In this document: in pieces, positions 2,278 through 10,390 of the stretch
How the letters are laid out: each line of letters starts with the position of its first letter
How positions within the stretch are numbered: the stretch's first letter is position 1
DNA from: Candidatus Doudnabacteria bacterium
GTDB taxonomy: Bacteria; Patescibacteriota; Doudnabacteria; UBA920; O2-02-FULL-48-8
DNA: 10,390 nt
Direction: 5' to 3'
NCBI GenBank assembly: GCA_016207695.1
Contig: JACQPC010000041.1
Location: 1-10,390 of the forward strand
Notes under the pieces: generated by a model
The model's input: only the letters and a program-made list of their open reading frames with translations
Told to the model about the DNA's origin: nothing
Database searches by the model: none
Made by a program: the position numbers and the translations under genes

Positions 2278-3021
2278 TTATCTTGGCGCAGCCTGCATGC
2301 TTTCAATCAGGCTTGCCCACACCTCCTTACTTTTCGGCTGAAAAACCACTCGCCCCGCCTCCACGTCGGTCACCACTGCAGGATCATCCTGTCGGAATGA
2401 CTGCAGAGGATGATCAAGTAGACTAATCACGGGAACACCCCCGTACTCCGACAGTCCAGAACCATTGACCACACACACGATGGCCACCGGAAGGGCCCTG
2501 CACTCACGGACTAAATCGATGGCTTTCTTCGTGGTTGCGAAATGGTGGACGATATCTTCGGCGATGGCGATCCGTTCGTTCGCTGTGAGATCGTGCCGCC
2601 TCAGTTCGAGCCTAGATGACTCGCGCACTCCCGGCCGTGCATGGTTAGTCACTATCTTCTCGGCCGAAACCGAGCGCCAACTCCCGATCCGAGCCACTTC
2701 CCGACCGAACACCGATCCGCTGGTCGGTAACCCTAAGACCGTCCTAGGTCGATAAGACGGCAACTCACACTGCACGAGCTCAAATGCCCAGGCCTCATAT
2801 ACATTAGGGAACTCGTCGGCCTTGGCGAAGTTGAAGTACTCTTCACCAACAAAATTCTTTTCACCGTCGTCTGTCGGATAAACGGCGGTGTAGGCGACAA
2901 GCTGTCCCAGTCGGATTCTCTCCGAACTTACTGGACACTTGTAGTACGCGCCCAGAGCTTGCATCGCCTTAAGAGGATCCCTGACCAGCAATAGGTGATT
3001 GTTGACGTCTCGAAAGTTCAA
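2278..3021 (-). CDS. Orotate phosphoribosyltransferase-like protein (PyrE-like)
   Basis: The 247-residue product is a type I phosphoribosyltransferase. Its position directly after pyrF points to orotate phosphoribosyltransferase, which makes orotidine 5'-phosphate (OMP) from orotate and PRPP in the cytoplasm. Seen are TVLGLPTSGSVFGREVAR (94-111), RLELRRHDL before the PRPP strand, and IAIAEDIV (151-158) with the acidic pair Glu155-Asp156. The loop after that pair reads HHFATTKKAIDLV instead of the usual TTGGS type, so it is longer and lacks the glycines. The start is TTG: no ATG is near, and a GAGGAGG lies four bases upstream (3026-3032). It starts 14 bases after pyrF ends, so the two are one operon. 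Base composition is well above that of the flanking genes. A PRTase of another specificity is possible. Confidence 0.75.
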   Translation of the reverse strand: MNFRDVNNHLLLVRDPLKAMQALGAYYKCPVSSERIRLGQLVAYTAVYPTDDGEKNFVGEEYFNFAKADEFPNVYEAWAFELVQCELPSYRPRTVLGLPTSGSVFGREVARIGSWRSVSAEKIVTNHARPGVRESSRLELRRHDLTANERIAIAEDIVHHFATTKKAIDLVRECRALPVAIVCVVNGSGLSEYGGVPVISLLDHPLQSFRQDDPAVVTDVEAGRVVFQPKSKEVWASLIESMQAAPR

Positions 3022-3025
3022 TGCC

Positions 3026-3032
3026 CCTCCTC
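3026..3032 (-). promoter_or_regulatory. Ribosome-binding site that fixes a TTG start
   Basis: GAGGAGG on minus lies four bases before TTG (3021-3019), within the pyrF-pyrE-like gap. No ATG or GTG is as well placed. The next in-frame Met is about 20 codons in and would remove the N-terminal helix. Confidence 0.7.
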
Positions 3033-3035
3033 ACG

Positions 3036-3788
3036 CTATGCGCGCGCTAAGGCCGCGTCCATCTCTTCCGCCATGCGGACAGCTGCTTCCTTTCGGTTCG
3101 GTGCCCGAAGCAGCGGCCGACCGACCACGATGTAATCCGCGCCAGCCTGAACCGCTTCGACGTGGGTCGTAGGCCGCGCCTGGTCTCCGGCGGGAGCCCA
3201 GGTCGCCCATTCCGGACGAATCGCCGGCGTGATGATCACGAAACCCGAATCGCAGACGGTCTTGCGGATCTCCACGGCCTCCTGGGCCGAAGCGACCACA
3301 CCGTCAAGCCCCGAATTCGCGGCAAGAGCGGTAAGACGCACAACCTGCTCTGACACCGGCATCCCGTCGTAGTAGCCGATTTCCTTGAGCGCCGACGAGT
3401 CCATGCTCGTGAGTACCGTGATGGCGATCGCCATTGATCCTTTCGTCAACTCCTTCTCGACGAGCGCTTCGTTTCGGCCTTCGACAGCGGCACGCATCAT
3501 CTTCAAGCCGCCATCAGCATGAACATCAAACATCAGCACGCCCAGCCGCGCCGCAGCACGCGCCGCAGCCTTGACGGTATTCCCGATGTCCTTGAATTTC
3601 TGGTCCAAAAACACCGAACCACCCCGGCTGTGGACGAACTGACACGCTTGCGGCACACCGACGCTCGTTCCGAGTTGCATCCCGATCTTGAACCCACCGA
3701 CGTCGCCCGCCAGTTCCTCAATCAGACTTCCCACCTGGTCCAGATCATCGACATCAAGCGCGACGAGAATACGATCCTTTCCGGTCAT
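3036..3788 (-). CDS. pyrF: Orotidine 5'-phosphate decarboxylase
   Basis: PyrF decarboxylates orotidine 5'-phosphate to UMP, the last step of de novo pyrimidine synthesis, with no cofactor. The 250-residue sequence is a full-length TIM barrel with all signature parts: ILVALDVDDLD (7-17), FKIGMQLG, the catalytic FLDQKFKDIGNTV block with its Asp-x-Lys-x-x-x-Asp arrangement, TVLTSMD, GVVASAQE, the phosphate-binding IITPAIRP, and ADYIVVGRPL near the end. The ATG at 3786-3788 follows GGGAGGG at a four-base distance. It is the first gene of a two-gene unit with the pyrE-like gene, so the pair would carry out consecutive steps. Two 60-base lines counted by hand are 62-63% G+C against about 47% in ftsZ, which suggests transfer from another lineage. 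Confidence 0.97.
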   Translation of the reverse strand: MTGKDRILVALDVDDLDQVGSLIEELAGDVGGFKIGMQLGTSVGVPQACQFVHSRGGSVFLDQKFKDIGNTVKAAARAAARLGVLMFDVHADGGLKMMRAAVEGRNEALVEKELTKGSMAIAITVLTSMDSSALKEIGYYDGMPVSEQVVRLTALAANSGLDGVVASAQEAVEIRKTVCDSGFVIITPAIRPEWATWAPAGDQARPTTHVEAVQAGADYIVVGRPLLRAPNRKEAAVRMAEEMDAALARA

Positions 3789-8617: not shown

Positions 8618-9232
8618 TCAATAACTGTATTCTGGCTGCTCAAACATCCCAAACTCCGTAAGCGGCAGAGCCCGCAAAAACACGCGCCCGACCATGTTTG
8701 GTCTTTGCAAAATGCCCCAATCGCGGGAGTCAGAAGAAGCCAGCCGGTTGTCGCCTAAGACAAAGTATTCATCTGGACCTAAGGTAATGGTTTTGCGCCC
8801 GCCGACTAAGTCTGCATTATGGGGGAAAGTCAGTCCCTGGTTAGATAGGTAAGGTTCCTGCAGCGTCACTCCTTCCGGATATTCCTCGTTATAAATCACA
8901 ACGCGGCCGCTGTCAATCTTCACTTTTTCCCCCGGCAGGCCGATAATTCTTTTGATGAAAAACTGCTTGCGGTCCTTGGGAAAATGCAGCACCACGACTT
9001 CCCCGCGCAAGGCATCCCGAAAGCGGTAGGAAGCCTCATCTATGATCAGATATTCGCCATTGGAATAATTCGGCTCCATAGATGAGCCAGAGACGATAAA
9101 GGGCTGGAACAAAAAATAGCGGATCGGCAGGATGATTGCCAGGGCGATTGCCACAACCTTGATAAAGTCCCAAAGAAACAACCCGATGCTCGCTAAACGA
9201 TTATTTTGAGAGTGACTTTCTTGATCTTCCAC
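8618..9232 (-). CDS. lepB: Signal peptidase I
   Basis: LepB cleaves signal peptides from exported proteins at the outer face of the membrane. The 204-residue product has one N-terminal membrane anchor (about residues 17-42, FLWDFIKVVAIALAIILPI), box B with the nucleophile in SGSSMEP (Ser51), and the general-base lysine in FFIKRIIGLPGE (Lys94). The C-terminal box GDNRLASSDSRDWG is followed by the GR strand. This is the usual size for Gram-positive-type S26A enzymes. The start is GTG (9232-9230) with AAAGGA six bases upstream (9239-9244). That ribosome-binding site begins one base after the CCA of the upstream tRNA remnant, so lepB is probably transcribed with the tRNA region. The HisRS-like gene follows after 60 bases. 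Confidence 0.96.
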   Translation of the reverse strand: MEDQESHSQNNRLASIGLFLWDFIKVVAIALAIILPIRYFLFQPFIVSGSSMEPNYSNGEYLIIDEASYRFRDALRGEVVVLHFPKDRKQFFIKRIIGLPGEKVKIDSGRVVIYNEEYPEGVTLQEPYLSNQGLTFPHNADLVGGRKTITLGPDEYFVLGDNRLASSDSRDWGILQRPNMVGRVFLRALPLTEFGMFEQPEYSY

Positions 9233-9245
9233 ACAAATTCCTTTC

Positions 9246-9290
9246 TGGTGGATCCGGATGGACTTGAACCATCGACCTTTCGGACCCGCC
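9246..9290 (-). pseudogene. 3' part of an interrupted tRNA
   Basis: On minus this is a clean tRNA 3' end: T-arm GATGG-TTCAAGT-CCATC (9273-9257), acceptor strand CGGATCC (9256-9250), discriminator A, and encoded CCA (9248-9246). Only about 30 bases separate it from the CCA of tRNA-Val upstream, too few for acceptor, D and anticodon arms. The seven-base acceptor strand is fully complementary to GGATCCG at 9715-9709, so the two look like the ends of one tRNA, now about 470 bases apart end to end. The anticodon cannot be read: CCGAA before the AGGTC-like variable loop has no partner. A different fold is possible, in which GGGTCCG (9287-9281) pairs with CGGATCC (one G·U) as a tRNA-like minihelix. 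Confidence 0.6.
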
Positions 9291-9303
9291 TACGTTACCA
9301 TTC

Positions 9304-9379
9304 TGGTGGGCAATGGTGGATTCGAACCACCGACTTCTGCAATGTGAATGCAGCGCTCTAACCGCTGAGCTAATTGCCC
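9304..9379 (-). tRNA. tRNA-Val(CAC)
   Basis: A complete cloverleaf of 76 bases including encoded CCA. Acceptor GGGCAAT pairs with ATTGCCC, the D-arm is GCTC-AGCGGTTA-GAGC, the anticodon arm is CTGCA-TTCACAT-TGCAG with anticodon CAC at 9346-9344, and the T-arm is GGTGG-TTCGAAT-CCACC. The discriminator is A. It starts six bases after the GIY-YIG stop codon. A weak TAGAAT (9395-9390) could be a private -10; otherwise it comes from processing of a longer transcript. It lies between the two separated ends of another tRNA. Confidence 0.95.
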
Positions 9380-9385
9380 CAAAAA

Positions 9386-9622
9386 CTAAATTCTATCTTT
9401 GAGAAACCTGCGACCAAAGCCAGTTTTAAAATACTTTTCTCTCTTTATAGCTTTTTCTTTACTCAGACAAGCCTCATAATAAACCAACTCCAAAGGTCTC
9501 CTATACTTAGTCGCTAGTACAAATCCGTCATTATGCTTTTTAACTCTGATTCTCAAATCAGACGTCCAGCCAATATATAACTTTAAATCTTTTAGACTTC
9601 GCAATACGTATGTGTAAAACAT
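9386..9622 (-). CDS. Small GIY-YIG nuclease domain protein (UvrC/URI type)
   Basis: The 78-residue product is a single GIY-YIG domain of the URI group. Seen are MFYTYVLRS (the GIY-like strand, residues 1-9), LYIGWT (YIG, 15-20), the arginine-rich DLRIRVKKHN helix with the catalytic Arg24 or Arg26, TKYRRPLELVYYEAC (38-52), and Glu62 in REKYFKTGFG, the usual metal-binding glutamate. The ATG at 9622 starts the conserved domain. The reading frame stays open to a TTG at 9664, but those 14 extra codons read through a palindromic insert and the D-arm of a broken tRNA, so they are unlikely to be native. Function is unknown; a nuclease role in repair or mobility is inferred. It lies inside the interrupted tRNA, directly before tRNA-Val. 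Confidence 0.85.
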   Translation of the reverse strand: MFYTYVLRSLKDLKLYIGWTSDLRIRVKKHNDGFVLATKYRRPLELVYYEACLSKEKAIKREKYFKTGFGRRFLKDRI

Positions 9623-9715
9623 ATATACGCGCTCTAACCCGCCCGCCATCGCAAGCCTGCTCAATGCTCAACTACTTGCTCAGGCGTTGCGGGCGGGCCG
9701 CTGAGCTACGGATCC
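9623..9715 (-). pseudogene. 5' part of an interrupted tRNA
   Basis: On minus it begins GGATCCG (acceptor, 9715-9709), TA, GCTC (D-stem, 9706-9703), AGCGG. After a 60-base palindromic insert it resumes TTA GAGC (9637-9631), completing a D-arm whose joined loop is identical to that of tRNA-Val. It then runs into the GIY-YIG start codon within nine bases, so the anticodon arm and 3' half are not here. A matching 3' end lies at 9246-9290. It has its own well-formed promoter (9738-9766). As it stands no standard mature tRNA can be built from it. Confidence 0.65.
9638..9697 (-). repeat. 60-bp palindromic insert in a tRNA D-loop
   Basis: The insert starts CCCGCCCGC (9697-9689) and ends GCGGGCGGG (9646-9638), perfect 9-bp terminal inverted repeats. 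A second register pairs CGCAA with TTGCG and GCCTG with CAGGC (one bulged C) further in, so the whole unit folds as a long hairpin. The loop carries TGAGCA three times. Removing it restores a normal 8-base D-loop. It resembles a REP- or MITE-like element in structure; no family is recognised. Confidence 0.65.
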
Positions 9716-9737: not shown

Positions 9738-9766
9738 ATTTTATCAGAGTAAGCATGGCAAATCAA
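9738..9766 (-). promoter_or_regulatory. Promoter in front of the interrupted tRNA
   Basis: On minus, TTGATT (9766-9761), a 17-base spacer, then TAAAAT (9743-9738) with a TG one base upstream (extended -10). Transcription would start near 9731, about 16 bases before the tRNA 5' end. It could drive the tRNA region and lepB together. It overlaps the proposed LCP promoter on the other strand. Confidence 0.65.
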
Positions 9767-9797: not shown

Positions 9798-10390
9798 ATG
9801 AGAAGTTTCGATATCAATCAACCAAAGCATCCATCTCAAACCTATGAACGGCCGAAAAAAAAGCGCCGGCTGCTTAAGTTTTTAATCCTGCTGTTGATTC
9901 TTATAGGCATGGGCTGGGCCAGCAGCAGGCTGTTGTCCAAAGCCAATCAAATTTTCACCAACAAGGAGAATATTTTTATCCGCGCCGGCAAGCTGATTAT
10001 TGGCGCGGACAAGACGCTGGTTGGAGAAGATGAGGGGGTAGTCAATATTCTGCTGTTGGGCATGGGAGGGCCTGGGCATGATGGGCCACTGCTGACTGAC
10101 ACCATGATTGTGGCCAGCATCAGCGTTAAAACAAACGAAGTGGTTCTAATTTCGATCCCGCGTGATTTTGTTGTTGCGCTCGCCAACCAAGGTTTTCGAA
10201 AAATCAATTCCGCCTATGCTTACGCTGAATTAGCCGAGCCGGGTAGCGGCGGGATAGTGGCGGCAGCTGCTGTTGAAAAAATCACAGGCCTGACTATTCC
10301 ATATTACGCTTCAATAGATTTCAAGGGCTTTGTTAAAGCCGTGGATCACGTGGGCGGAATCGATGTCACAATTGACCGTACTTTTACCGA
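9798..10390 (+). CDS. LCP (LytR-CpsA-Psr) family protein, 5' part
   Basis: The frame runs from ATG at 9798 to the window end with no stop: 197 codons, so the gene is cut by the edge. The product has a short basic cytoplasmic start (PKKKRRLLK), one membrane helix (about residues 25-45), then an extracellular LCP domain: NILLLGMGGPGHDGPLLTDT (83-102), MIVASIS, the SIPRDFVV strand (119-126) with the conserved Arg-Asp, the FRKINSAYAYA helix (133-143), and DFKGFVKAVDHVGGIDV (174-190). LCP proteins transfer undecaprenyl-linked glycopolymers onto the cell wall or other acceptors. Which polymer is used here cannot be told. It is the only clear plus-strand gene and is divergent from the tRNA/lepB region. 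No Shine-Dalgarno is seen. Confidence 0.93.
   Translation, partial: MRSFDINQPKHPSQTYERPKKKRRLLKFLILLLILIGMGWASSRLLSKANQIFTNKENIFIRAGKLIIGADKTLVGEDEGVVNILLLGMGGPGHDGPLLTDTMIVASISVKTNEVVLISIPRDFVVALANQGFRKINSAYAYAELAEPGSGGIVAAAAVEKITGLTIPYYASIDFKGFVKAVDHVGGIDVTIDRTFT

Follow-up and report, generated by a model that had tools for sequence, protein, structure and literature searches.

What does it mean that the two ends of a tRNA gene lie apart from each other in a bacterial genome, with a small nuclease gene and a second, complete tRNA gene between them? This question is raised by a stretch of 10,390 nucleotides from a Candidatus Doudnabacteria bacterium, referred to here as the window, which is the whole of one contig of a 515-kb draft genome (79% complete, 101 contigs). 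An earlier note on this DNA had described a tRNA split around a GIY-YIG nuclease gene and a tRNA-Val(CAC), a description that was confirmed, with refined coordinates, on the minus strand (Table 1). The nest is flanked by a LytR-CpsA-Psr gene on one side and a signal peptidase I gene on the other, and all its parts are on the minus strand; read along that strand, a 5′ tRNA piece is followed by a palindrome, the rest of the D-arm, the GIY-YIG gene, a tRNA-Val(CAC), a junction, and a 3′ tRNA piece. The GIY-YIG open reading frame is the sole sizeable gene inside the insert.

Table 1. Features of the nested tRNA-Val locus and its neighbours in the window.
Feature	Position	Strand	Evidence or remark
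LytR-CpsA-Psr gene, on the other side of the nest, running off the window	9798..10390	+	PF03816, E 1.1e-20
Sigma-70-like promoter match upstream of the old tRNA	9738..9766	-	consensus only, TTGATT-17-TAAAAT
5′ piece of the old tRNA-Val(CAC): acceptor GGATCCG, TA, GCTC AGCGG (D-arm 5′ side)	9698..9715	-	
60-nt palindrome CCCGCCCGC...GCGGGCGGG, within the old tRNA's D-loop	9638..9697	-	
D-arm 3′ side of the old tRNA, TTAGAGCG	9630..9637	-	
Small GIY-YIG nuclease gene, 78 aa, ATG at 9622	9386..9622	-	PF01541, E 4.1e-13
Complete inner tRNA-Val(CAC) with CCA	9304..9379	-	ARAGORN; RF00005, 73 bits
19-nt right junction from the inner tRNA to the old 3′ half, ending in ..GTAGGCGGG, palindrome-end-like	9285..9303	-	
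3′ piece of the old tRNA-Val(CAC), from the 3′ anticodon stem through variable loop and T-arm to acceptor CGGATCC, A, CCA	9246..9284	-	
Signal peptidase I gene, the anchor for finding the locus in relatives	8618..9232	-	PF10502, E 5.6e-42

ARAGORN, proposed as a check in the earlier note, found the intact tRNA-Val(CAC) at 9379-9304, and neither ARAGORN nor Rfam reported a split tRNA or an intron in the window. The stretch 9621-9715 folds with -46.2 kcal/mol (z -3.86). The pattern of the palindrome had one exact match only, its own, in the examined part of its genome, and the right junction ends in GGCGGG, as does the palindrome; between the two sides of the inner tRNA no clear inverted repeat was seen (score 5.0). 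The promoter that had been assigned to the 5′ piece does match the consensus, but two such matches on the window, compared to 1.6 in shuffles, are not above chance. As an aside, RF04354 (Plastid-ycf2) matched the antisense strands of tRNAs below its cut-off in the window (9306-9379, plus strand) and at loci L148 and L203, which looks like a property of the model.

The origin of the two pieces became apparent from the relative G002 (locus L108), where an intact tRNA-Val(CAC) sits at the same chromosomal place as the nest of the window. The 5′ piece together with 9630-9637 is identical to it at 25 of 26 positions and the 3′ piece at 39 of 39, and the acceptor strands of the two pieces pair 7 of 7, as had been noticed before. 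This comparison identifies the halves as pieces of one old tRNA-Val(CAC), the pairing not being a matter of chance. Among 23 orphan 3′ halves with CCA, taken from an early set of loci with some places counted twice, a 7/7 acceptor partner was found upstream of 17 and, as a control, downstream of none. The inner tRNA of the window differs from the outer one and is identical to the inner tRNA of L104; inner and outer tRNA-Val differ in the acceptor and anticodon stems. A reading of the 3′ half as tRNA-Pro(CGG), considered initially, was dropped in view of the Val anticodon loop in L022 and the intact tRNA-Val in L108.

Both pieces lack 11 nucleotides, TTCGGTTCACA, which hold most of the anticodon loop including the anticodon, and TTCGGTTCACA is absent from the whole window even when one mismatch is allowed. 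Due to this loss, the outer tRNA of the window cannot be rebuilt from its halves. The suggestion of a trans-assembled tRNA thus failed, and the same applies to a spliced one, the window having no match to an intron family; for the group I intron core (RF00028) there was no match up to E 1, while the same library did find the introns of L148 and L203. Within the reading of the locus as an insertion, the old tRNA is probably dead and the inner tRNA probably the functional gene.

With the signal peptidase gene, which is present in 12 of 14 genomes of the family (own included), the locus could be followed in relatives, and tRNA-Val(CAC) lies beside it in all 11 relatives' loci fetched. Inspection by eye of the 700 nt upstream of this gene revealed a single intact tRNA-Val in six of them (L101, L102, L106, L107, L110, and L111), nested tRNA-Val in four (L103, L104, L108, and L109), and in L105 only a 5′ piece with palindrome ahead of an intact tRNA. 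With intact genes at the same place in relatives, and with the same architecture recurring at other tRNAs (see below), a mobile insertion, one of the earlier possibilities, is strongly supported. Another one, a rearranged tRNA pair, came close, although the inner tRNA is a complete gene of the same isoacceptor inside the outer one and no half has been swapped.

The layers of the locus suggest several invasions. In L103, an intact tRNA-Val is enclosed by the halves of at least two older tRNA-Val genes, with the arms CCCCGTTAGATTTT / AAAATCTAACGGGG, and by eye its middle layer matches the intact tRNA of L111; in L109, the same GGATCCG tRNA as in the window encloses a different tRNA-Val, and behind a further 5′ piece comes a GIY-YIG gene. 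When the inner tRNA was searched for in 49 genomes of the order, more Val nests emerged, e.g., L116 and L125. A few Val and Ile tRNA alleles were also seen to recur, in differing nest orders and in different genomes (L104/L193, L142, L199, L108, and L109), as if tRNA alleles circulated between relatives.

Nests at other tRNAs were surveyed in five genomes, four of which (G002, G004, G011, and G012) had been picked after a Val nest was seen, and one (G010) without. The survey comprised 72 regions around the best 150 of 231 tRNA matches, chosen by tRNA score irrespective of nesting, and 173 intact tRNAs were detected in them by ARAGORN. A tRNA fragment of the same amino acid adjoins 31 of these 173, while only three more have nothing but a fragment for another amino acid; by genome, the counts are 7/32 in G002, 8/34 in G004, 2/36 in G010, 10/38 in G011, and 4/33 in G012. 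On the side expected for nesting, the flanks of the 173 tRNAs showed 24 upstream 5′ halves (22 for the same amino acid) and 25 downstream 3′ halves (23 for the same), compared to eight and eight (three and two for the same) in the wrong-side controls and none on the opposite strand.

The same rule emerged from the 21 orphan 3′ halves with CCA in the survey. Sixteen were classifiable, i.e., they had a clear nearest neighbour and an intact tRNA at most 260 nt upstream, and all 16 agreed in amino acid with the intact tRNA preceding them, whereas random neighbours from the same survey gave a mean of 1.06 matches and a maximum of seven in 10,000 draws. In the comparison library, tRNAs of the same locus id were excluded, a few Val sites being duplicated under other ids. 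Five halves were left out: two belong to intron-bearing tRNA-Phe genes without an intact tRNA just upstream, and three had scores below 12 and no intact tRNA upstream. The 16 represent Ile, Pro, Arg, Val, Met, Asp, Ala, and Thr, with Val accounting for four. Where fragments lie on both sides, the inner tRNA was the sole intact copy of its anticodon in 16 of 17 cases among the best 150 of 231 matches, Met(CAT) being the exception; as the only intact copy in the examined loci, the inner tRNA of such two-sided nests is probably the gene that does the work.

A scan for nests gave 20 rows, eight of which were discarded as spurious (nearest-neighbour scores of at most 2), leaving 12 split pairs, all for the same amino acid. 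In ten of the 12, no more than 105 nt separate the outer 5′ half from the inner tRNA that follows, so there is no room for a nuclease gene between them. Several insertions were followed by eye: the outer tRNA-Ile(GAT) halves of L142 join without a missing base into a sequence equal to the intact inner tRNA-Ile of G011, the outer tRNA-Arg(TCG) of L145 is complete and split at the end of the D-loop, the outer tRNA of L213 being divided at that point as well, and other insertions lie in the anticodon loop. By eye, the joins at L142, L145, and L213 look clean and free of a target-site duplication. In L142, inner and outer tRNA-Ile share their loops and differ mainly in the acceptor stem. Some outer tRNAs have decayed (L108 and the Ile layer of L199, both by eye), and at L025 and similar loci a 5′ tRNA part is duplicated and nothing more. 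A TCCGCC..GGCGGA-like palindrome was noticed by eye in the T-loop of outer 3′ halves at L153, L161, L167, L168, and L187, a third loop as target. Separately, group I introns occur in the anticodon loop of tRNA-Phe(GAA)-like genes at L148 (2886-3115, minus strand) and L203 (1026-1257, plus strand), with RF00028 scores of 66.7 and 72.1 bits, respectively.

An even sample of the phylum, for which 24 genomes were searched and 23 examined besides the window's own, was covered via 97 regions and 29 ready-made loci, the best-scoring part of the tRNA matches being listed. Among these matches, a fragment for the same amino acid lies beside 15 of 264 tRNAs, in eight of the 23 genomes. The expected sides gave 15 (10 for the same amino acid) and 13 (seven) hits, the wrong sides seven (none) and six (two); with this weaker signal, some of the 15 may be due to chance. 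Clear-looking nests with inverted repeats were found for Met in G068, Thr in G070, and Arg in G066.

The inserts often have recognizable ends. In 16 of 21 nests, the arms around the inner tRNA form inverted repeats (score of at least 9), compared to 16.75% of mismatched pairs, the 21 nests and the cassette arms having been picked by hand; of 157 other tRNAs, 20 pass the same threshold, and several of these read as further nests (L191, L153, L168, L187, and L164). GIY-YIG genes themselves lie between inverted repeats at 43 of 100 loci, compared to 4.3% of mismatched pairs (L091, L093-L096, L098, and L099 excluded; L022 and L214 are one place counted twice), and the right arm frequently overlaps the end of the gene. 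Cassette arms and GIY-YIG element ends have 7 nt or more of a core in common for 10 of 18 arms (7.9% when shuffled), and 8 nt or more for four of 18 (1.5%). Hairpins upstream of tRNA-adjacent GIY-YIG genes were in no clear excess (13/30, control stretches 11/30); for other GIY-YIG genes the counts were 25/42 and, in control stretches, 12/42. The core CCGCCCG was present in 12 of 30 tRNA-adjacent genes versus two of 42 others. At L051, three copies of a GIY-YIG element of about 280 nt with inverted repeats, counted by the spacing of CCCGTTAGA repeats, lie within 6 kb (374-646, 1132-1404, and 2985-3257), and no tRNA was found in this locus.

The 78-aa product of the window's GIY-YIG gene belongs, by its PF01541 domain, to the GIY-YIG nuclease superfamily. 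In an alignment of 94 rows that includes the window, Y5, Y16, G18, R26, H30, and E62 are each conserved in 98% or more; the Y, Y, R, H, and E are the catalytic residues of the domain. A search of NCBIfam with the protein gave no family. The nearest solved structure by sequence is that of the UPF0213 protein BH0048 (PDB 1zg2, E 7.3e-5), which shares the domain and the size class at a clear sequence distance. Scanning the named genomes with the window's protein, we obtained 79 loci from the best 80 of 83 hits, the closest relative (82% identity) being encoded in another Doudnabacteria genome (L022). Within the same best 80 hits, a tRNA on the same strand starts at most 100 nt downstream of the GIY-YIG gene in 32 of 79 loci, whereas none lies on the opposite strand and only three end just upstream, with a background of 0.006 per such stretch. 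Wherever a tRNA piece upstream scored at least 13, its best match among the 32 tRNAs was the downstream tRNA or another one for its amino acid (17/17 loci); over all tRNA-adjacent loci, the upstream piece matches the amino acid of the downstream tRNA in 23 of 32.

In a tree of 94 proteins, most forks of which are weak and in which L022/L214 is one place counted twice, the tRNA-adjacent trait changes 12 times, compared to 29.8 times when shuffled (0 of 500 shuffles as low). The weakly supported branch of the window holds 33 rows; 28 of them are tRNA-adjacent, the tRNAs being of various kinds and the genomes belonging to many candidate phyla. Left out of the tree were L091, L093-L096, L098, L099, L041, L043, L056, L097, and L100 as well as translations below 70 aa (below 60 aa for L214-L241). 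Relatives of the gene are present in all 14 genomes of the family; G010 carries six, yet has fragments at only two of its 36 tRNAs. Two arrangements of another kind were seen by eye. In L030, the GIY-YIG frame is followed on its 3′ side by a tRNA-Thr-like sequence with palindromes in the D-arm and anticodon loop, the T-arm region of which seems to contain a second, different GIY-YIG reading frame, and in L075 and L100 from Verrucomicrobiota the GIY-YIG gene is located 3′ of the tRNA, the order opposite to that of the window.

We consider the following to be established, in so far as sequence can establish it: the window holds one split old tRNA, its identity is tRNA-Val(CAC), and the site is intact in relatives; the same-amino-acid rule applies at many tRNAs, and inverted repeats surround many inner tRNAs and GIY-YIG genes. 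To these we add the repeated insertion of a complete isoacceptor into a resident one, often with inverted-repeat ends, and a group of GIY-YIG genes that adjoin tRNAs. Our main reading, to which we assign a probability of roughly 0.7, is that the window represents an insertion into a resident tRNA-Val(CAC) that carried a palindrome and a nuclease gene together with a complete replacement tRNA, with the nuclease as the driver. Taken alone, the insertion appears highly probable; for the nuclease as its driver, the odds are in our judgement slightly short of even. In the proposed course of events, the predicted GIY-YIG nuclease would cut or nick the loops of tRNA genes and the element would enter at the break. 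The same-amino-acid rule would follow because an insertion into a single-copy tRNA gene can only be survived if the insert brings that tRNA; no copy would persist unless it supplied a functional tRNA like the one disrupted, and repeated rounds would leave tRNAs nested like Russian dolls. Such “cleave and rescue” with the nuclease as driver is plausible. In its strictest form, natural cleave-and-rescue by inverted-repeat elements of about 280 nt, whose only protein is a GIY-YIG nuclease that breaks tRNA loops, it can only be put forward tentatively. The ten tight split pairs and the few nests that hold the gene count against simple cleave-and-rescue, and the inner tRNA of L142, sharing its loops with the outer one, would not obviously be protected at the insertion site. 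The gene-rich but fragment-poor G010, the near absence of a hairpin excess, and the doubts about homing expressed for GIY-YIG inserts in rRNA genes (PMC11270868) count against the nuclease as driver. The main reading is further weakened by the lower signal in the even phylum sample and by the window's own inner tRNA, the sides of which give no clear inverted repeat.

A passive origin, doubtful as a whole though deserving serious attention, has to be weighed here: other machinery, or recombination after DNA uptake, would have inserted palindromic repeats of the MITE or REP type as well as tRNA alleles from outside, the GIY-YIG gene being a further passenger at tRNA hot spots and not the driver. 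The gene does not fit into ten of the 12 split pairs, G010 carries the genes and few nests, and the limited Val allele set in varying nest orders (by eye) is what recombination among relatives is expected to give. What a passenger does not readily account for is that the GIY-YIG genes are themselves bounded by inverted repeats (43/100), that their ends have the core of at least 7 nt in common with the cassette arms (10/18, 7.9% when shuffled), and that the tRNA-adjacent genes cluster in the tree across many phyla and with different tRNAs. An ordinary free-standing homing endonuclease in a tRNA spacer, accompanied by unrelated tRNA pieces from tandem duplication, is unlikely in spite of two points in its favour, namely SegB of phage T4, a GIY-YIG endonuclease in a tRNA region (PMC2988022), and loci such as L025 in which a duplicated 5′ part stands alone; tandem duplication does not account for a complete tRNA enclosed by the two parts of another, those parts pair across the inner tRNA, and many inner tRNAs are flanked by inverted repeats.

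That the outer tRNA is still made, its insert being spliced as an intron or its halves being joined in trans, is very improbable. The complementary acceptor strands would suit it, as would the outer halves of L142 and L145, which join without a missing base (by eye), and the group I introns in tRNA-Phe anticodon loops of these genomes; for the window, however, it is refuted by the lost anticodon, intron families that the library detects at L148 and L203 gave no match there, and some other outer tRNAs have decayed. An assembly artefact that merged two tRNA regions might be suspected in so fragmented a draft genome, but nests of the same kind with different sequences occur in other genomes, also within long contigs (L213, 344,653 bases; L354, 699,981 bases), so that this explanation is hardly credible. 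Insertion of a nuclease-carrying element with its own replacement tRNA remains our preferred reading.

Parts of this logic are known from other systems. Elements with tyrosine integrases target tRNA genes and restore one tRNA end at the attachment site; they resemble the window in that a tRNA gene is entered and its function kept by the element's own sequence, and differ from it by the complete second tRNA inside and by the GIY-YIG frame as the only sizeable gene of the insert. Synthetic “Cleave and Rescue” gene drives combine a nuclease against an essential gene with a recoded rescue copy. Those drives are man-made, whereas in the window such logic is only inferred.

A natural parallel is found in the mobile ORFs (mORFs) of fungal mitochondria, in which an endonuclease gene inserts itself into a gene that the cell requires and supplies a foreign substitute for the portion it displaces, the native portion staying behind (PMC3630166); gene hybrids of this kind are described there for atp6 of Allomyces and for atp6, atp9, cox2, and nad3 of Glomus. 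The window likewise combines an endonuclease gene with a replacement for the displaced target, a complete tRNA-Val in a split tRNA-Val. Unlike in mORFs, a whole tRNA gene has here entered a tRNA gene for the same amino acid, repeatedly nested and in bacteria, and the inserts are often bounded by inverted repeats and often without room for an endonuclease. For phage T4 SegB, high-frequency inheritance of its gene in T4 x T2 crosses is reported (PMC2988022), and a split tRNA, a replacement tRNA, or inverted repeats as seen here are not described in the portion of that paper at hand.

Closer in host are the rRNA genes of CPR bacteria, where GIY-YIG reading frames occur in inserts that show no similarity to introns of group I or II; most inserts of all kinds sit at the top or base of stem-loops, and the authors, in the excerpts considered, hold that the GIY-YIG inserts do not spread by homing (PMC11270868). 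They share with the window the host group and the non-intron nature of the GIY-YIG inserts. Unlike for the window, the main text of that paper mentions neither tRNA nor palindrome, and no rescue gene is described with the rRNA inserts in the excerpts considered (PMC11270868). In none of the three systems, as far as these partial sources extend, does a whole tRNA of the same kind lie inside a tRNA (PMC3630166, PMC2988022, PMC11270868). Nor was a description of nested isoacceptor tRNAs or of this element found in the literature searched, a partial collection with preprints and most subscription papers outside its scope. The nested-tRNA architecture appears to be new; since its logic has parallels, as in the fungal mORFs, what sets it apart is the unit that is inserted, along with its inverted repeats, its nesting, and the same-amino-acid rule.

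In the usual picture, tRNA genes serve as conserved landing sites, and the phages that use them restore the gene ends. In the nests, whole tRNA genes with apparently no second copy in the examined loci, among them Ile(GAT), Asp(GTC), and Ala(TGC), seem to have been repeatedly replaced by a copy of the same kind inserted into the old one. Annotation should take heed of this, as nested halves resemble introns or split tRNAs. If confirmed, the nests would represent a new route of tRNA evolution and reveal a mobile element of a new kind, equipped with just one tiny nuclease, as well as a natural counterpart to the engineered cleave-and-rescue drives. Such an element would spread by carrying a complete tRNA of the kind that it breaks, its sweeps replacing essential tRNA genes and leaving nested fossil tRNAs behind. 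In these bacteria, selfish DNA, and not mutation alone, would then account for the turnover of tRNA alleles.
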